Virus record (IMG/VR): IMGVR_UViG_3300032223_001420
Coordinates: 22,491 to 86,490 of that record
DNA: 64,000 bases
Direction: 5' to 3' (one strand)
From: a virus
Both the position numbers and the translations under genes were made by a program. The notes below the pieces were generated by a model. The model did not search any database, had not been told where the DNA came from, and worked only from the letters and a program-made list of their open reading frames with translations. Below, in pieces: positions 1 through 25,300 of the stretch (position 1 is its first letter; each line of letters opens with the position of its first letter).

Positions 1-1155
1 ACCTTCTTTTTCGTCTTTTTCTTTTCTCTTTTCTGCTGTAGGTTTTTTCTCTGGTGGTTCTGGTATAGGTGCTTTCGTACCATCTGATGCGGGTACTTGT
101 CTTACATCTACTTTAGGTTTTACTTCTTCTTTTTTAGGTACAGGAGTTGGTGCCTCTTCTTTCTTTGGCTCCTCTTTTACTTCTTCTTTTTTACCAAATA
201 CTCTACTAAGAAAAGGTTTTTTCTTTTCTTTTTCAGCCGCTTCTGCAACTTTCTTTTTTCTTTCTGCTTCTTTTTTGTCTTCTTCGGCTTTCAATAACTT
301 AGATTTTTCTTCGAAAAGTTTATTTCTTTTATCCGACAGGTCTTTGTCTTGTTTATCTAAGTCATCATATTGCTTTTTTAATTCTTCGGAACGTTTAACT
401 AACTGCTCATTTACACTGCGTCTTTCAATAAGTTTATCAACATCAACACCAAGAATATCTTTTGCAACATATCTTCCAATAACTTGCAACTTAGGCGCCA
501 ACCATTCTACAGCACTTTTAATAAAGCCGCCAATACCTTTTACAATTTCTTTATAAACCGAACCTACTTGTCCAAGCGCACTATCAACTTGCTTTTCACT
601 AATCAAACCAAAACTGATGAAGTTTAAATATTTTTTGAATGCTGTTTTGAATAAATCTAACCAATCCACATCTTTGAAAAAGGTGGTTACACCGTCGGCT
701 ATGTAAGAAATTCCTTCAGATATTATGTTGGTAATTTTCTCAATATAAGGCGAAATGATTTCCGTAATTTTATAAATTACATATCCAACAGAAAGCAACG
801 TGGTAATGAATAGACCTTGTAATACTTTTACAAAGAAATCTAGTATGCCAGCCAGAAAAGTTCGTTTCTTTTCTTTTCCATATTTTTTAACTTTGATGGT
901 TGCTACTTTTATTTCTTTAGATTCTGATAGAGATTTCGTAATATCCGAAATCTGACTTCCAGTTGCCGGTTCAATATTGTGTAATTTTACATAGTTACCA
1001 AATGCATTGTTTAATGCTTTAAGTTCTTTAGCGATTGTTGGAAACAGTAAAGTATTCTTGGCGATGATACGCAACGAAGACACTGCATCTTTTGTGTCTC
1101 TGTCTTTTTGTACCTTACTATCAGGATTTTTTTTGTTAAATAATTTTTCTAACAT
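1..1155 (-). CDS. Tail-core (tape-measure-region) protein, third paralogue, partial at left edge
   Basis: The reading frame is open from its ATG at 1155 to base 1, giving 385 codons with no stop, so the C-terminus lies outside the window. Its ATG overlaps the stop of the upstream lysozyme-bearing gene as TAATG. Residues 26-58 carry a motif (IIAKNTLLFPTIAKEL) also found in the next two upstream genes. A hydrophobic helical stretch covers about 100-130, a second shared motif (FISFGLISEKQV) lies near 179-190, and a charged coiled coil with Lys/Glu/Pro-rich tail runs from about 240. The function is not recognised. Its place in the operon after the chaperone-like and lysozyme-bearing genes suggests a tail-lumen or baseplate-hub protein; this is inference. 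Confidence 0.7.
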   Translation of the reverse strand, partial: MLEKLFNKKNPDSKVQKDRDTKDAVSSLRIIAKNTLLFPTIAKELKALNNAFGNYVKLHNIEPATGSQISDITKSLSESKEIKVATIKVKKYGKEKKRTFLAGILDFFVKVLQGLFITTLLSVGYVIYKITEIISPYIEKITNIISEGISYIADGVTTFFKDVDWLDLFKTAFKKYLNFISFGLISEKQVDSALGQVGSVYKEIVKGIGGFIKSAVEWLAPKLQVIGRYVAKDILGVDVDKLIERRSVNEQLVKRSEELKKQYDDLDKQDKDLSDKRNKLFEEKSKLLKAEEDKKEAERKKKVAEAAEKEKKKPFLSRVFGKKEEVKEEPKKEEAPTPVPKKEEVKPKVDVRQVPASDGTKAPIPEPPEKKPTAEKRKEKDEKEG

Positions 1156-3245
1156 TATGCCGTTACTCTATTTGCCATCGCTGTTCCTGGATCAGTTTTT
1201 GGTTTTTCCAATGAAGCAGTTTGAGTGTCTACTTTTTTATTGTTATTAACCCTAGCTACATTCACTACATTAGCATCTTTAGGCTTCAATTGTTCTCTTT
1301 GTGCTTGAGCAACTTGCGTAGATTCATCTTGTAAAAATTTACCGGCGGCAGCAACTTTAGTTGAGCCTGTTACTGAAGCAAGTGCTGCCGAACCTTCTTT
1401 GTCACTAGCAGCACCAGCACGAATCAAACTTAATGTTATTGGACCACGACTCTTGACTTGTTTATACCAAGCACTATTTCTAAATTCATCTGCGGCACCT
1501 TTAAAGTTTCCTTCACCTAATAGTGCTGCCGCCTTTTTAAATTTCGTATACCAATAGCCACCCATGTTATATGTCAAATCAACCAATCCAGCTTTACCAG
1601 CTTCATTAGCCTTGTCCCAACCAGGTGCTTTTTCTGCTAGTTTCAAATGTTCGGCAAAATCTTTTTCAAACAATATACGAATTTCTTGATTACTGAATTC
1701 TCTGTCATATTCTTTAGGTAATTTTTTACCATCACCAATCAAATGCCCAACACCAACAGTCCATAATCCACGAGAATCTTTGTATGGTTTATTTTTCCAT
1801 CCCTCATTTGCAATAACCATTTGTTTGATGTTTTCATACTTACCACTTGTTGGAGATGGAGTTGCCGCTACCGGTGCAACCGCAGGCGCTGGTGTTACTG
1901 CTGGTGCGGTTGCGGGTTTAGTTATTTTCGGTTCAGCTTTTGGTGGTGTGGTTTTCTGCTCAACGGGAATACTTCCACCTTCTCTTGTTCGTTTTGTTTC
2001 CGCTTCAAGTTCAGTCTTTTCTTTTTCCTGTTTTGCCTTTTCGACTTTTGCTGCCTCTAAATTAGCTTTTTCGGGACCCTCAGCCATTGACTTAATATCA
2101 TATTCGAGTGTGGCTATTTCTATTTCAAGTTGACGAATATGAATTTTTTTCTGTTCGATTTTTTCGTCCATTTGTTGAAAATACTCAGCATATTTCTCAC
2201 GTTGTTTTGCTTCTTCTTCCATTCTTTTGGCATTCATTTGCTCGAATGAAGATTTAAAATCTGATGGAGTAGATTCGTTAGTAAATAAAGAGGTAACTTT
2301 TTTGTATATAAAGATGGCAAATTTACTAATTTTTTCTTCAATAAATTGGATTGATTTGTCTATTACATTCAAAGAAAACTTAAAGAAATTATTATACCAT
2401 TTACCAAAAAAATCATAGATATCAGACGAATTTTCTTTACCCAATATACCAAAGCTGAATTCATCCATCAGACCAACAATAAAAGTTTTAAAAAAATCTC
2501 CACCTTTTTGATACTCCGCCCATGCGTCTTTTAGTGGGTCCCAGACCATTAATACGACTGTTACTGCGGCCGCAATCAATGCTGCAAATGGACCAGAAAA
2601 CGCTACGGAAGCGGCAAACGCAGTGCCAAATCTAACGGCCAATTTTTGTAAACCTTTTGTGAAAAATCGTTTTAATGCATTCGAAAATACTTTAACTACA
2701 GGTTTTATAATTTTACTGGCGTTTTTTCTAAACCAATCCATGAACATCTTTTTGACGTTCAGTTTACCCATTATACTTTTTAGACTTGATAATAGTTTTC
2801 TTTTGAATTTCATAAACTTACGAATCCACGTAAGTTTTTTCAACTTCTTCAATGCTGCTGCGGCAAGTTTTCGTTCTAACGGTCTTTCTACTCTATAATT
2901 GATATATTTTTCCATCAACGATTTTACCCAACCTTTATTACTATGGGTTCCATCTTGTGATGCTTTGGATATTTTTGAACCTAGATATTTTTCACGAAGA
3001 ACATTGAATTTTTTAGAACGCTCGTCATCTTTCAAAAAGTGTGCATCTGGAGTACCTTTAACTTTGATACCCTCTATGGCCAACCAACGTGAAAAATTTA
3101 AACGAATGAGTTTGAGGTCGTTTGCCATTTTACCAATGGCAAGATAATTAATCGCTGTCTTTTTTAGGGTGCTGACTACAGGAGATGGTGATGATTTATT
3201 AAGATCACCCTTGTCTATTGTAAGACCAAGAAGATCAGATAGCAT
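1155..3245 (-). CDS. Tail-core protein with T4-type lysozyme (muramidase) domain
   Basis: The protein has 696 residues. Residues 25-58 share a motif with the two flanking genes, 203-235 are strongly hydrophobic, about 330-422 form a charged coiled coil, and 423-468 are a Pro/Ala/Thr linker. Residues 470-612 are a glycoside hydrolase family 24 domain. Its triad Glu481, Asp490 and Thr496 has exactly the spacing of T4 lysozyme Glu11/Asp20/Thr26, followed by VGVGH. The likely role is local cleavage of peptidoglycan during DNA entry. In T4 this activity is part of gp5, but the gp5 homologue here (10869-11738) has no lysozyme domain, so the function appears to have moved. The start lies 2 bases after the stop of the preceding gene. 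It is unlikely to be an endolysin, because it is long, multidomain and sits in a tail operon. Confidence 0.85.
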   Translation of the reverse strand: MLSDLLGLTIDKGDLNKSSPSPVVSTLKKTAINYLAIGKMANDLKLIRLNFSRWLAIEGIKVKGTPDAHFLKDDERSKKFNVLREKYLGSKISKASQDGTHSNKGWVKSLMEKYINYRVERPLERKLAAAALKKLKKLTWIRKFMKFKRKLLSSLKSIMGKLNVKKMFMDWFRKNASKIIKPVVKVFSNALKRFFTKGLQKLAVRFGTAFAASVAFSGPFAALIAAAVTVVLMVWDPLKDAWAEYQKGGDFFKTFIVGLMDEFSFGILGKENSSDIYDFFGKWYNNFFKFSLNVIDKSIQFIEEKISKFAIFIYKKVTSLFTNESTPSDFKSSFEQMNAKRMEEEAKQREKYAEYFQQMDEKIEQKKIHIRQLEIEIATLEYDIKSMAEGPEKANLEAAKVEKAKQEKEKTELEAETKRTREGGSIPVEQKTTPPKAEPKITKPATAPAVTPAPAVAPVAATPSPTSGKYENIKQMVIANEGWKNKPYKDSRGLWTVGVGHLIGDGKKLPKEYDREFSNQEIRILFEKDFAEHLKLAEKAPGWDKANEAGKAGLVDLTYNMGGYWYTKFKKAAALLGEGNFKGAADEFRNSAWYKQVKSRGPITLSLIRAGAASDKEGSAALASVTGSTKVAAAGKFLQDESTQVAQAQREQLKPKDANVVNVARVNNNKKVDTQTASLEKPKTDPGTAMANRVTA

Positions 3246-3247
3246 AG

Positions 3248-4933
3248 TTAAGCAGCAGCCGTTCTATTTGAATAATAACTATCAATAAAACTAGTATTAA
3301 ATGCATCGGCTGTTTGTTTTGATTTGTTACTGGTCGTACCCATATTATTATTGACGGTACCAGCATCAACAACAATACCAGCATCAGCAGCCGCATCCAT
3401 TCTCTGTCCTTCAGCAACATCAGATGATGCTTGTGATAGTGATGCTCCAGAAGTTTTTGGTGTTGCTGCTGTTTCTGCTGAAGGTGAAGCGGCTGCACTT
3501 ATTGAAGATGCCGGTGGTGTTCCACCTCCAGCAGTTGCCGCAGGAGGTGTTGCTGTTTGTGTAGTTGGAGCAACTGCTGTAGGTGTTGCTGCTGCTTTCA
3601 GTGCTGCTAGAATTTTATCAGGATTGCCCCCTTCGTCCGCAATATCTTGCCGAACGGCTTCTACTGAAACTGGATAATTTGTTTTTACTCTTGAAAAACC
3701 CGTTGGCGATTTTGGGTCAACTTGTACACCAACTTTTTTTCTTAAAAATTCTACAGCAGATTCTTTACTTGTTTCCGCTTTGGTTGCTAAAGATTCTTTT
3801 GATGCGGAACCTTTTGCTCCTTTATCGGGAGTTGGGCTTGTTGCCATACCACCAGACACAACAACACCTTGCTGATCGGTGACAATTTCTCCTTGTGCAG
3901 TTTTTGCTTTACCTAAATCTTCTTTAGGTGGAGCAATTGGTGTCGCACCACCAGTTGGTGCTGGAGCAACTTCATCCGCAGTTTTCTTAAATGGTCTAAA
4001 TCCAGGTACCTGAACATCAGAAAACCCCCAACCAATTTTCTTTAATAAGTCACCGACAATAGGAAGATCATTAATCTTAGATAATGGAATCGTAAATGGG
4101 TCCCACCCAATATTATCTTTTAACCATCCTACAATTTTTTGAAATGTTTCACCAATAACATCAATCATTGGAGAAATATATTCTGATAAATCATCTAATG
4201 ATTTGCGTAGTTCTTTTTCACCAAATAATCCAGCAGTAATAAAATCTAAAAATTTACCAACACCTTTAATCAGCGTCTCTTTAACGATATCCGTTTCGGT
4301 AATTGCTTTCCAGCCTTCTTCAATAGATTTGAATAGGTCTTCAATTAATGGCAATGGATTTAATTTCTCTGCAATACCACTTATAATCTTACCCAAATCA
4401 AATGCGGAAGAAAATGCTAAGGCCAAACCTAAAAAGAGAGTTGCTAATACCTTTTTCAATAAATCCCAAAGATAACCAACAACACCTTCTTCACCACCAG
4501 TGTCTTCTTTTTCTTTTTTAGGTTTACCTTCTTTGTCTACCTGCTTTGGAGCAGTTTCTTTCTTACGGGCTTCTTCAAGTTCTGCTTCTCGTTTGTCTTC
4601 GGTTTTAAAAAACTTATCCGCTTTGGTAATCGCTTCGGCGTTTTTAAACTTGACTAGCTTGACAATATTTTGACGCAACACATTCATATCTCTTGCCATA
4701 CCAGGCAGAGCAAGAGAGTTTTTCGCAATGATGTTTAGAAAAGGTATAACATCTGCGCTGATTGAACCTTCAGTCTCACCGCCAGCTTTAGTTGGAGACT
4801 TCTCATCCTTTTTTTTCTGAAATAACGAACCAAATGAAAAACTAGCCCCTTTGTTACCAAGAGACTCTTTCATCATACGAAAATTTTCGTACCCTAACTT
4901 CTTAGCCAGTTCTTCTAAATTTTTATCTGCCAT
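3248..4933 (-). CDS. Tail-core (tape-measure-region) protein, first paralogue
   Basis: This 561-residue protein follows the tail-chaperone-like gene and overlaps its -1 extension as TAATG. Residues 60-98 contain the motif shared with the next two genes (IIAKNSLALPGMARDMNVLR). Residues 150-178 form a hydrophobic segment, and 226-245 hold the second shared motif (FLDFITAGLFGEKELRKSL). The C-terminal third is low-complexity Ala/Pro/Thr/Ser. The tape measure gene usually lies right after the frameshifted chaperone pair in tailed phages, so this is the best positional candidate for a tape measure or gp29-like hub component. No sequence signature proves that, and it is shorter than expected if one protein spans the whole tube. 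Confidence 0.6.
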   Translation of the reverse strand: MADKNLEELAKKLGYENFRMMKESLGNKGASFSFGSLFQKKKDEKSPTKAGGETEGSISADVIPFLNIIAKNSLALPGMARDMNVLRQNIVKLVKFKNAEAITKADKFFKTEDKREAELEEARKKETAPKQVDKEGKPKKEKEDTGGEEGVVGYLWDLLKKVLATLFLGLALAFSSAFDLGKIISGIAEKLNPLPLIEDLFKSIEEGWKAITETDIVKETLIKGVGKFLDFITAGLFGEKELRKSLDDLSEYISPMIDVIGETFQKIVGWLKDNIGWDPFTIPLSKINDLPIVGDLLKKIGWGFSDVQVPGFRPFKKTADEVAPAPTGGATPIAPPKEDLGKAKTAQGEIVTDQQGVVVSGGMATSPTPDKGAKGSASKESLATKAETSKESAVEFLRKKVGVQVDPKSPTGFSRVKTNYPVSVEAVRQDIADEGGNPDKILAALKAAATPTAVAPTTQTATPPAATAGGGTPPASSISAAASPSAETAATPKTSGASLSQASSDVAEGQRMDAAADAGIVVDAGTVNNNMGTTSNKSKQTADAFNTSFIDSYYSNRTAAA

Positions 4934-5130
4934 TACTTCCTAGCCTGTTTTTGTGCATTAATACGTTCTTTTTCTTCTTCCAGATACTTAATCAAAAGAC
5001 TAATGTATATGTTTCTTTCCCAAGGTATCATATCTTCAAGTTCAGTCAAACTATATTTGTGATGCTGCATCATTGCAAAGTTTGTCTGATAGTAATTACC
5101 TAGTGTATCATGACGAAATATTAAGCGAAA
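4933..5130 (-). CDS. -1 frame extension of the gp26-type gene (chaperone GT-like tail)
   Basis: This frame is open from the slippery site to a TAA that overlaps the next ATG (TAATG) and encodes 65 residues. It contains MIPWERNIYISLLIKYLEEE, of a type often seen in small tail-assembly proteins. The only in-frame ATGs begin partway through (MMQHHKYS) and would drop a well-formed stretch, RHDTLGNYYQTNFA. The frame reads on smoothly from the gp26-type gene if ribosomes slip -1 on AAATTTTTTC. The expected fusion is about 306 residues. The alternative is separate translation from the internal ATG pair. Confidence 0.7.
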   Translation of the reverse strand, partial: FRLIFRHDTLGNYYQTNFAMMQHHKYSLTELEDMIPWERNIYISLLIKYLEEEKERINAQKQARK

Positions 5131-5852
5131 AAATTTTGTAAGCCTTTGATGACCATTTCTTCCTCATAGCCACATTTAGGGCAATGAAAGTGAACATCTT
5201 TTTTAATCTCAGGCATTGTGTCAAAAAACACACGAATTTTTTCTAAATCTTTTTGCTGCATAGAATCCACGAAGTCTTCAAGTTCTTTACGTGAGGTATC
5301 TTTGGCATAATAAATTTGTTCATCATCATATAAGAAATCGATACAGTCAATAAGAATATTGACCATGATATCATTTTCATCCATCTGTTCATACTTCTGA
5401 ACCATCTCAAACGTTGGATATTTTAGACTGATGCCGATTTTATCATTCAACATAAACTTAGATTCATGCTCGGTGTGTTTTGTTGGTTCTATTTGTAATA
5501 GGTTTACATCAAACTCAACGGAGCCGTTACAAACGGTATCTTCACCCTTATCGTTTTTTATTGAATTGTTGCATTTATATTTTAGGTTAACGACTTCTTC
5601 TACCGATCTTGCACGAAGATTCATAAACAGATATTCAAGATCAAATGTTGGCAAACTATCAACATCTATCTCATCCAAGATACAGTTTTTTAAAACTTGC
5701 TTAATTGTTGTGATCGTTTCTTTTGAATCTTCTGATTCGGCTGCCATTAAAAACAACTTTTGTTCTTTGACTAAGAATGGACGAATTCTAACATCCTGTC
5801 CTGTTGAAATCAATTTAACATTGTAAATAGGCACATCAAGTTTTGGTAACAT
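5121..5852 (-). CDS. gp26: gp26-type baseplate hub / tail assembly chaperone (T4_baseplate family)
   Basis: This 243-residue protein resembles the T4 baseplate hub family that includes gp26, with an N-terminal pattern LPxxxxPxYxVxLISTGxxVxxRPFLVKE and an acidic middle. Four cysteines (94, 108, 224, 227, the last two as CPKC) could bind zinc. A gaGAGGA-like ribosome site precedes the ATG. The gene ends on a slippery heptamer, and a 65-codon -1 frame continues into the conserved PWER motif. This is the same design as the lambda G/GT tail chaperones that sit just before the tape measure gene. The family match is strong; the chaperone role is inferred from position and the frameshift. Confidence 0.75.
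   Translation of the reverse strand: MLPKLDVPIYNVKLISTGQDVRIRPFLVKEQKLFLMAAESEDSKETITTIKQVLKNCILDEIDVDSLPTFDLEYLFMNLRARSVEEVVNLKYKCNNSIKNDKGEDTVCNGSVEFDVNLLQIEPTKHTEHESKFMLNDKIGISLKYPTFEMVQKYEQMDENDIMVNILIDCIDFLYDDEQIYYAKDTSRKELEDFVDSMQQKDLEKIRVFFDTMPEIKKDVHFHCPKCGYEEEMVIKGLQNFFA
5127..5136 (-). promoter_or_regulatory. Candidate programmed -1 ribosomal frameshift site
   Basis: On the minus strand the zero-frame codons CAA AAT TTT TTC GCT TAA end the gp26-type gene. They contain two overlapping X-XXY-YYZ heptamers, A-AAT-TTT and T-TTT-TTC, two to three codons before the stop. The -1 frame then stays open for 65 codons. No strong downstream hairpin was verified by folding. Confidence 0.65.
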
Positions 5853-5869: not shown

Positions 5870-6610
5870 TTAAAATATACTTCTTCCAAGCACACCTAAT
5901 CCAGTTGCTCCAAGCGTTGTTAGTGTTTGACCAACATCCCAATTACCTTCATAAATTGGTCGATAACGTTGATAAGCAAACTGTATTGACAAACGATGAA
6001 ACCCATCATCTTGCCAGCTTAGTGTTTGTGGAGAAATTCCAATTGGAAAAGCATCAACTAAATCTACCGCAAATATCTGACGAACCACATCATCATATTG
6101 TATAATACGAATATTTGTCATGTATCTTGATGCTTCGCTTTTTGGAAAACGAGCGTTGTTTGTATCAGACGGTATAATTGCTTCCATCCAACGATCAAAC
6201 AATTTGCGCTCGTAAAAATCATTTGTACAGATAAACGTCAGTGTTGTATCTGTGTATTGCATACGATATGGAATCTTATAACTTGGTCCATATATTCTTG
6301 CATCGGCTGTTTCTAATGTACGACCTGGCAATTCTGCTGCTTCACATTGTAACGCTAAGTATCGTGATATCGATGGGTTAGCCGACTTCATTGGTCCATC
6401 TTGATCTTGTGTTCCTAATGCAGAATTAATAGCATCCGAAACATCTGAAAAAATAGAATTAGGAAAATTCAATATTTTCTCGATAACTGAGTTACCTACC
6501 GCTTGTCCAATATAAGGTGGTATGGGTAATATCACTTCAAATCGTGATGGTTTGGCTGGACCGCCTTTACCGTTTATATTTGATAGAAATAGATTAGGTG
6601 AAAACGACAT
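5870..6610 (-). CDS. gp54: Tail-tube-fold baseplate protein, gp54-like tube initiator
   Basis: This 246-residue protein has the layout of gp19-type tube proteins: a short N-terminus, a strand with PSRFEVILPIP, a Cys/Leu-Pro-Gly loop (CEAAELPG), a YxxTLTFICTNDFYERxxFDRWM core, and a final aromatic beta hairpin. T4 gp54 and gp48 are tube-like proteins that cap the baseplate and start tube polymerisation. gp48 is encoded divergently at 7687, which makes this one the likely gp54. Its ATG overlaps the last base of the preceding gene. The choice of gp54 over another tube-fold protein is not certain. Confidence 0.65.
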   Translation of the reverse strand: MSFSPNLFLSNINGKGGPAKPSRFEVILPIPPYIGQAVGNSVIEKILNFPNSIFSDVSDAINSALGTQDQDGPMKSANPSISRYLALQCEAAELPGRTLETADARIYGPSYKIPYRMQYTDTTLTFICTNDFYERKLFDRWMEAIIPSDTNNARFPKSEASRYMTNIRIIQYDDVVRQIFAVDLVDAFPIGISPQTLSWQDDGFHRLSIQFAYQRYRPIYEGNWDVGQTLTTLGATGLGVLGRSIF

Positions 6611-22388: not shown

Positions 22389-25300
22389 ATGGCAATAACT
22401 ACAAATTTTAATGTTGATCCATACTATGATGATTTTGATGAAGATAAGAACTATCACCGTATTTTATTTAAACCAGGATACGCTGTTCAATCACGTGAAT
22501 TAACCCAAGCACAATCAATATTACAAGACCAAATCAAGAAGTTTGGTAATCATATGTTTAAGACTGGTTCAGTTGTTACTGACGGTCAAGTTACTATTCA
22601 GAATACTGCATATTTGAATATCGCATCAACTTATTCAAACAATTCTATTTTGTATTCAAACTATGCGAATCAAGTAATTTTTAATTCAGCAAATACAAAA
22701 CGTGCGTATGTTTTGGCTTCGTATGATGCCAGCCAAACAAATAAAGAGCCAATTACTTTTGTCATCAACCAACTATATGGTGATGCTTTTGTTCCAGGCG
22801 AAACTATATTTACTTCTAATACTACATCTAATTCAGTTACCTATTATGCAAATGTAGCAGACACATACGTAAATACAGCATCGTATACAGTAAGTCCAGT
22901 AGGCAACAATCAAACGTTTTCTATTAATGAAGGTGTATTTTATTACGAAGGTTACTTTGTAAAATCTAACGCACAATCTATAGCGATTGATAAGTATAGC
23001 CGCATAGGTAACGCAATTATTGGTTTTGAAGTTTCTGAATCTATCGTGAATTATACTTCAGATACTACATTACTTGATCCTGCACAAAGTTCATCCAACT
23101 ATCAAGCACCTGGTGCTGACAGATTTAAAATTAGTTTAGCTCTTGCTAATCGCCCAATTACCAGTACCGACTTAACACGTTTTATTGAATTAGCTCAAGT
23201 TGCTGGTGGTGTACCACAAAAAGTAGTTCAGACTCCAATTTATGCTGCGATTGGTGATGAGATGGCTCGTCGCACGTTTGACGAATCTGGTGATTACATA
23301 GTTAAAGATTTTGAATTATCTATTACTGATAGTAGCGCAAATTCTGCATATGCAAACGTTGCTCTTGCTCCAGGTAAAGCATACATTAAAGGTTATGAAT
23401 TTGGAACGATTGCTCCAACTATTTTAACTATTCCAAAACCAAGAACAACTGCAACGATTTCTCAACAACATATTAATTCTGATTTTGGTTACTACATTTA
23501 CGCTAATAGTCTCTTTGGTAACTTTGGTACTAACCAATATGCTAACGTAAACATTCTAAATGTAGACGCACAAACAGCTTCTGGACTTGTTATTTCTGGA
23601 ACATCAACTGCAAACGTATCGAATCTCTCAAATACACTTATTGCAAATGCTAAAGTTAAATTGATGTCATTCTATTCTGTTGGTAACTCCAGCGGTTCGG
23701 TTGTCGATAGTAATACTTACATTTACAAAGTATTTTTAACTGACGTAAATACCAAAACAATTTTTAATACAACAACTGGTGCTGGCTATAATGTTAATAC
23801 TGGTAGTACCGTAGCACCATACTCGAATATTGGTTTGCCGAGTGGTTTCCCACAAAACACAAACATCTATGTTGGTGCTACAGTTAGAATGACTGCGGGT
23901 GGTCGTGTTCTCGATGGTAATCGTATCGTTGTTGGCTACGATGCTGCAACAAGAAACATTACTGTTGATCGCCCATATACTGGACCAGTTACAACCAGTT
24001 CACAGTTTATGCTTGATGCTGATTATAGATTGGGTGAATCTTTAGTTGTATTGAACACTGCTGGATTTGTAATTGCTTCGGCAAACGTTCATCCATCATC
24101 AAAAGATTTGACGAATAAACTTCCTGGTGTTACACCAGATAACTATTGGCAACCAGTCGTTATTCAAGAGGCTGTGAGTGAACCTTTGTTGTTAAAAGTT
24201 GGACAGAATTTTGTAGCCGATAATACTATTTCTAATTTCTCGTATAGTTATAAACGTCTCTATCAAGGTATTTCGTTTACGTCTGGTGTATCTTCGCCTT
24301 TATCAATTGCTACTGGTGAAAGTTTACAAGGCGCAACAACAAACGCATCTAGACAACAATATTATACAATTATTCCAACAACCACAACTGGTGGATTTAC
24401 AACTGGTTATTCATTGAATTCTGCTGCGTTTACTGTAGATACTCAATCACGTACTTTAACAGTTTCGAGTGCATATGGAACACCATCATTCTCTGCAAAC
24501 GTATATGCTACAATCAACTCAGTAAACCCAACATCAAAAACTAAAACATATATCAAGGCAAATACAACATTAGTTGCTGCTGCTGGTGGTTCTGCTAATG
24601 ATATTTTTGCAAATGCTACAGTTTTCGTTTCATCGTTAGATGGTCAAACACAAATTGCAAGTAGTTTGATTACCAAAACACCTGGTATACCACAATATCT
24701 TTATGTGACCGATGTTGATTCGATTGCCTCGATTTATGATTTTAATGGTACAGCAATTACACTGACATCATATAATGCACTTGATAAATCAGAAACTTCA
24801 TCTGCTAACGTAACTTCACGTTATACATTATACACCGGTCAAAGAGATTCTTACTATGATTGGAGTGCGATTGTATTGAAGCCTGGACAATTGCCTCCAG
24901 TTGGACCTTTGTTAGTTCGTTATAATCGTTTCAAATCTACTGGCGCAGGTTTCTTCAACGTAGATTCATATACACGTTTAGGTTCACAAACCAATGGTGG
25001 TAGTGGTGTCGATTATGGACAAATTCCTATTTTCAGATCAGAAGATGGTTTCTTATACAAGTTATCAGACTACCTAGACTTTAGACCAGTTCGTAAAGAT
25101 GCAACTGGTCCCGCAACAGCAAATGCATTTGTTTTGGATAACGAAGAAGGTGGAGTTGGTTCGAAAATTAGTGAACCAGGAATGGATATTGTAACAAACT
25201 ATTCTTACTACCTAAATCGTATTGACCGAATTGTTCTTTACAAAGATCGTTCGTTCAAAGTTCTTCAAGGCACACCAGCAGTTAATGCGGTCGTACCAGA

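Follow-up and report, generated by a model that had tools for sequence, protein, structure and literature searches.

A frameshift relates the tail-assembly chaperones gpG and gpGT of phage lambda to each other (Xu, Hendrix and Duda, 2004; reviewed in PMC5009743). A review of 2016 calls this kind of frameshift conserved in long-tailed phages, 'except T4' (PMC5009743). Chaperone genes of T4-like phages were identified by Vladimirov et al. (2022), whose work is considered here as it is cited in two later papers (PMC10885494, PMC12846349). The PRFect paper (PMC10885494) refers to it for the occurrence, in some T4-like phages, of a short gene together with a longer, fused one; in the Adele paper (PMC12846349), it is the source given for poly-T slippery sequences in T4-like TAC-N genes. 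To the extent of these citations, the equivalence of gp26/gp51 to the chaperone pair has been published, the protein families are the same as those treated below, and gp51 is described as the short gene fused to its downstream part. In Vandenendeviridae and Andersonviridae, a frameshift at a GTTTTT motif has been described (PMC12846349). It shares with the locus presented here a −1 extension conserved throughout the genomes, a T-rich motif in the 3'-terminal part of the TAC-N gene and the misannotation of the downstream ORF as a gene of its own. By contrast, the motif differs and a protein-family relation to gp26 was not detected.

The window, i.e. the whole stretch of 64,000 nucleotides that was analysed (positions 22,491 to 86,490 of IMG/VR virus record IMGVR_UViG_3300032223_001420), contains a gp26-type gene that, judged from comparative sequence analysis, very probably yields a short and a long chaperone form by programmed −1 frameshifting at its slip site. 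This is supported because site and frame are conserved, the −1 peptide is under selection, hairpins follow in many relatives and T4 gp51 is homologous to the predicted fusion. Frameshifted tail-assembly chaperones are a known class, of which the gp26 case is a well-supported further example. Added here are a quantified breadth, an analysis of start codons and lineage-specific hairpins; the hairpins and the breadth of the gp26 frameshift may be previously undescribed. The locus resembles lambda G/GT in its short gene, the −1 slip site at the 3' end of this gene, the longer fusion and the location at the tube and tape measure genes, and by design the short form is the main product. It differs in that gp26 belongs to family PF12322 and lambda G to another one, and in that many gp26 relatives have a downstream hairpin. 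In addition, the lambda slip site is presumably a G/A-type heptamer, whereas T_TTT_TTC is found at gp26.

The gp26-type gene and its −1 frame

The gp26-type gene (243 aa, positions 5121..5852; like all features below on the (−) strand) matches Pfam family T4_baseplate, PF12322, with E=3.8e-61 (207 bits at a cut-off of 24.5) and PHROG 150, baseplate hub, with E=3.9e-69. Its product would be the short form of the chaperone (TAC-N, compare lambda gpG). The 3' end of the ORF reads CAA AAT TTT TTC GCT TAA and holds, just as the earlier note on this DNA had described, two overlapping heptamers of the canonical type X_XXY_YYZ: A_AAT_TTT (5130..5136, read 5136-5130) and T_TTT_TTC (5127..5133, read 5133-5127). 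Both are in zero-frame register and lie inside the overlap with the −1 ORF. One codon 3' of the slip site, the gene terminates with TAA (5121..5123). The −1 frame is indeed open up to a TAATG on the next gene: the extension (4936..5127) comprises 64 codons after the shift, RLIFRHDTLGNYYQTNFAMMQHHKYSLTELEDMIPWERNIYISLLIKYLEEEKERINAQKQARK, so that the predicted fusion has 306 residues, and its stop codon TAA (4933..4935) overlaps the next gene's ATG (4933-4931). The extension is found in all relatives and corresponds to 'gp51' in cyanophage annotations. It matches PHROG 634, 'baseplate hub assembly catalyst', with E=5e-28 and positions 234-279 of PHROG 150 with E=6e-7, aligns to the C-terminus of T4 gp51, and would constitute the C-terminal part of the long form (TAC-NC, compare the T part of lambda gpGT). 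Its earliest in-frame ATG, GTG or TTG is located 50 nt from the gp26 stop (ATG ATG, 5073-5068) and 3' of RHDTLGNYYQTNFA. This means, the conserved segment of the extension precedes any in-frame start codon in the window locus, as had been claimed.

According to the proposed mechanism, most ribosomes would terminate at the gp26 stop and release the 243-aa short form, and a minority would slip back one base at T_TTT_TTC and read 64 more codons to yield the 306-aa long form. Both forms would serve as tail-assembly (tape-measure) chaperones. Their common gp26 domain would form a coat around the tape measure protein; the extension, carried by a few copies only, would link this complex with the tail tube or hub, in the manner of lambda gpG and gpGT. 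In T4 and its near relatives, the two forms are encoded by distinct genes, the short one by gp26 and the long one by gp51. The slippage itself, its frequency and the chaperone roles are inferred.

The neighbouring genes are consistent with such roles. Upstream lies the gene for a 246-aa tail tube-like protein of the gp19 family (5870..6610), which matches PHROG 45, tail tube, with E=1.6e-35, and Pfam Phage_T4_gp19 below the cut-off with E=1.6e-4. The next gene downstream (3248..4933) encodes 561 aa and is a candidate for the tape measure protein by its position; it matches no Pfam or PHROG family. In relatives, the order is tube, gp26, extension, tape measure, with the annotated tape measure gene one to two genes after the extension, e.g. 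in HTVC008M, phiM12 and Cr30. A placement of the lambda G/GT type between tube and tape measure genes thus fits, the window tape measure being assigned by position. The 561-aa gene is followed by a gene for a 696-aa protein (1155-3245), whose C-terminal region matches a phage lysozyme domain (PF00959, E=2.4e-11). Either of these two gene products may be the tape measure or a hub lysozyme.

The structure of the window gp26, predicted with good confidence (pLDDT 86), weakly resembles the HK97 tail-assembly chaperone. Among the 50 matches listed in a Foldseek search against the PDB, a probability above 0.2 was obtained only for 2ob9, 3fgx and 3klu: 0.77 for 2ob9_B (E=0.62), 0.57 for 3fgx and 0.51 for 3klu, all of them weak with E >0.5. 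2ob9 is the HK97 tail-assembly chaperone, and 3fgx and 3klu are related tail-assembly chaperone folds. In the T4 gp51 model (pLDDT 84.5), the extension adds C-terminal helices; no chaperone was among the PDB matches listed for this model, and a gp26 profile search of the sequences of solved structures yielded no match. The model-based evidence is supportive, not decisive.

Conservation of slip site and −1 frame

As near relatives, 80 IMG/VR loci with gp26 proteins 70-93% identical were collected, which represent 54 distinct junctions. All 54 have T_TTT_TTC at the same place and an open −1 frame. Their first in-frame ATG is found at +50, +53 or +92, within or past the conserved segment; the sole exception is locus L048, where an in-frame ATG lies upstream of the slip site. 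The distant set comprises cyanophages, pelagiphage HTVC008M, Vibrio phage KVP40, Aeromonas phage CC2 and phages of Sinorhizobium, Rhizobium, Caulobacter and Stenotrophomonas. The selection of loci was based on similarity of the gp26 protein and disregarded the slip site. The resulting 187 gp26 junctions form 31 clusters at 70% and 18 clusters at 50% gp26 protein identity. A −1 extension of at least 40 codons is present in 31 of 31 and in all 18 clusters, respectively, and T_TTT_TT followed by C, T or G in 29 of 31 and 16 of 18. Slip site and −1 frame are both kept even between phages with gp26 protein identities below 50%, which is the conservation that the earlier note had proposed to look for. 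Its description of two overlapping heptamers applies to the window lineage; across relatives, T_TTT_TTC is the invariant one, whereas A_AAT_TTT is accessory and lineage-specific, lost in a minority of near relatives and most cyanophages and often replaced (AGT, TCT, GAT, CAG AAT). Locus L183, which is pelagiphage-like, was left out of the junction set due to an early stop in gp26; it is probably an indel or a defective copy.

The two clusters of the 31 that lack T_TTT_TTN are of the Ackermannviridae type (Serratia phiMAM1 and Vibrio D533). Three more Ackermannviridae have kept the −1 extension, which begins near an ATT TTC ATT end, and a canonical heptamer is absent in these three. In five loci of Ackermannviridae and Vibrio D533 (L094, L099, L206, L207, L208), the mostly unannotated −1 extension has a conserved MPWH motif; the gene ends of this set read ATT TTC ATT TAA, GTT TTC ATC TGA or CTT TTC AAG TAA, with no canonical heptamer.

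T_TTT_TTC is conserved beyond amino-acid need and chance. In all 28 clusters that have Phe-Phe at the slip site, the codon preceding Phe-Phe ends in T (17.6 expected from local codon use) and the first Phe codon is TTT (17.5 expected). If the clusters count as independent, the joint P for both synonymous positions is ~4e-13. The −1 peptide is not expected to account for this constraint, since these bases are not read in the −1 frame before the shift. Between slip site and first ATG, the entropy in 35 distinct near relatives amounts to 0.28 bits at the first, 0.12 bits at the second and 0.71 bits at the third −1 codon position. Therefore, this stretch is selected as a protein although it has no start codon. 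Protein-level selection upstream of any start codon supports the earlier suggestion that the segment is translated by slippage.

Start codons, RNA structures and other explanations

The extension could also be a separate small gene, the 57-70 aa 'gp51' of current annotations, with a start codon of its own or with ribosomes that terminate at the gp26 stop and reinitiate there. In S-PM2, P-SSM2, KVP40, Cr30 and others, the annotated gp51 CDS does start 2-8 nt past the gp26 stop. Between slip site and conserved segment, 13 of 29 clusters have an in-frame ATG near the gp26 stop, but four have GTG or TTG only and 12, the window among them, no start codon at all. In most of the 13, the T-run occupies the position of the ribosome-binding site. 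Moreover, the upstream ATG codes for a residue that is exchanged with Leu among near relatives: close relatives within the S-PM2 group show TTG or another codon where the ATG stands. Because of this variation, the ATG reads as a Met/Leu residue and not as a kept start. Relatives with a clear ATG and ribosome site, against which the earlier note had weighed its proposal, were hence not found as a rule: the ATG is usually preceded by the T-run and is not conserved among near relatives. A separate gene would also leave the synonymous invariance of T_TTT_TTC and the full-length gp51 of T4 unexplained. Reinitiation or an independent start is rejected as a general mechanism, as 12 of 29 clusters are startless and the other ATGs lack a ribosome site and conservation, and we regard a separate gene as quite improbable. 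Reinitiation could contribute in some lineages, chiefly those with TAATG or TGATG. In S-CAM1, ACG-2014b and CC2 (L091, L098, L194), no CDS is annotated over the extension, and a gap of ~170-185 nt separates gp26 from the next gene.

Frameshifting at −1 often involves a stimulatory RNA element, a downstream structure or an upstream Shine-Dalgarno-like sequence, which is common but not obligatory. Compared with sequences recoded synonymously for the same −1 peptide, the 48 nt after the gp26 stop fold more stably (mean z −2.08 over 29 clusters; Wilcoxon p=1.6e-5), and 16 of the 29 are individually below 0.05. Two control stretches further 3' yielded mean z of −0.35 and −0.31, not significant. The hairpins vary by lineage, e.g. 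AAGTATGTCTCA...TGAGACATACTT in S-SSM7 and TGTTCTATAATA...TATTATAGAACA in the S-PM2 group, and RNAalifold found no single consensus hairpin in the ungapped family alignment. Loci L101-L121 and L133-L177 have strong lineage-specific hairpins of ~11-16 bp that start right past the gp26 stop, and in several of them the annotated gp51 ATG sits in the 5' arm. In the window lineage, no clear hairpin adjoins the slip site (z −1.7 for the window, +1.2 for L003). A weaker structure was noted 40-75 nt downstream in the window clade, where the 75-nt stretch exceeds its synonymous recodings in stability (mean z −1.97). At window positions 5040-5100, 35-75 nt past the gp26 stop, the near-palindromic GATGCAGCATC is found within CAAACT...AGTTTG.

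Upstream of the slip site, a weak Shine-Dalgarno-like AAAGG (5143..5147) is a possible stimulator. Across the family, a GAGGG-like element ~10 nt upstream gave a Wilcoxon p=6e-4 and a combined Fisher p=0.06. A role of this element as stimulator is only suggestive. Its placement is reminiscent of dnaX.

The same fusion would arise without ribosomal slippage if RNA polymerase stuttered on TTTTTT and a fraction of the mRNAs were shifted. With its six T, and seven in some relatives, the slip site invites this explanation, but six T are short for efficient RNA polymerase slippage. Both the codon register X_XXY_YYZ of the run, which is followed by a fixed C in most relatives, and the downstream hairpin in many of them are better accommodated by tandem tRNA slippage, so that we consider polymerase stuttering slightly less probable even than a separate gene. 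A T-rich gene end beside an unrelated open frame by mere coincidence, or a sequencing error in which the homopolymer masks an indel in this single assembly, is refuted by the comparative data and has a negligible probability: the arrangement recurs in 187 loci including finished isolate genomes, and among 56 window ORFs of at least 100 aa, the gp26-type gene alone combines a canonical heptamer in its last 45 nt with a −1 extension of at least 40 codons.

Relation to T4 gp26 and gp51

T4 gp51 was described in 2010 as essential but of unknown function (PMC3004832). Ribosomal frameshifting at the gp26-type gene offers a molecular reading for it, as the long form of the gp26 chaperone. PF12322 matches T4 gp26 with E=8.8e-64 and T4 gp51 with E=7.7e-55, in the latter covering residues 1-201 of 249. 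PHROG 150 covers the entire T4 gp51, and the extension alone matches the last 46 positions of this family. When virtual fusions were aligned with gp51 of six phages using MAFFT, the alignment crossed the junction without a large gap (GLQNFF|RLIFRHDTLGNYYQTNFA versus DIVDVF|KLLVNPDEIFTFYQINHT), and T4 gp26 ended a few residues past the Phe pair. By alignment, the predicted fusion has its end-to-end homologue in T4 gp51, and the short form has its own in T4 gp26. A short and a long protein with a common N-terminal domain are therefore found in both cases, as predicted frameshift products here and as gp26 and gp51, both PF12322 proteins, in T4.

The window phage and its freshwater and marine relatives would make the long form by the predicted frameshift, whereas T4, Aes508, SW69-9, SFHK24, Meroveus and leB have two separate genes. 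In T4, gp26 and gp51 are paralogous, divergent genes on opposite strands, which is why they cannot be joined by a frameshift. The earlier suggestion that gp26/gp51 is the tail chaperone pair can be maintained as an equivalence, but does not extend to a frameshift in T4, where gp51 is a full-length long form encoded by a separate paralogue. The protein tree separates two groups, gp51 (100/99) and the frameshift type (97/97); KVP40 and CC2, themselves Straboviridae, belong to the frameshift-type group. Frameshift and gene duplication, both providing few long copies among many short ones, offer a natural comparison.

The 57-70 aa 'gp51' genes in cyanophage annotations would be C-terminal parts of the fusion. 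It is conceivable, though in our estimate somewhat less probable than the contrary, that a hairpin-assisted frameshift at T_TTT_TTC is general for the gp51-type chaperone across the T4 superfamily, that the T4 pair was derived by duplication and that stand-alone gp51 entries are misannotated. This generalization would comprise cyanophages, pelagiphages, KVP40-like vibriophages and rhizobial, Caulobacter and Stenotrophomonas phages, with T4-like enterophages excluded. If true, hundreds of database entries 'gp51 baseplate hub assembly catalyst' would be misannotated fragments. In Cronobacter phage leB (L192:2501-3794), the gp51- and gp26-type genes follow each other on one strand and overlap slightly, whereas the T4 pair is divergent. 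This tandem could be a transitional state in the replacement of the frameshift by gene duplication.
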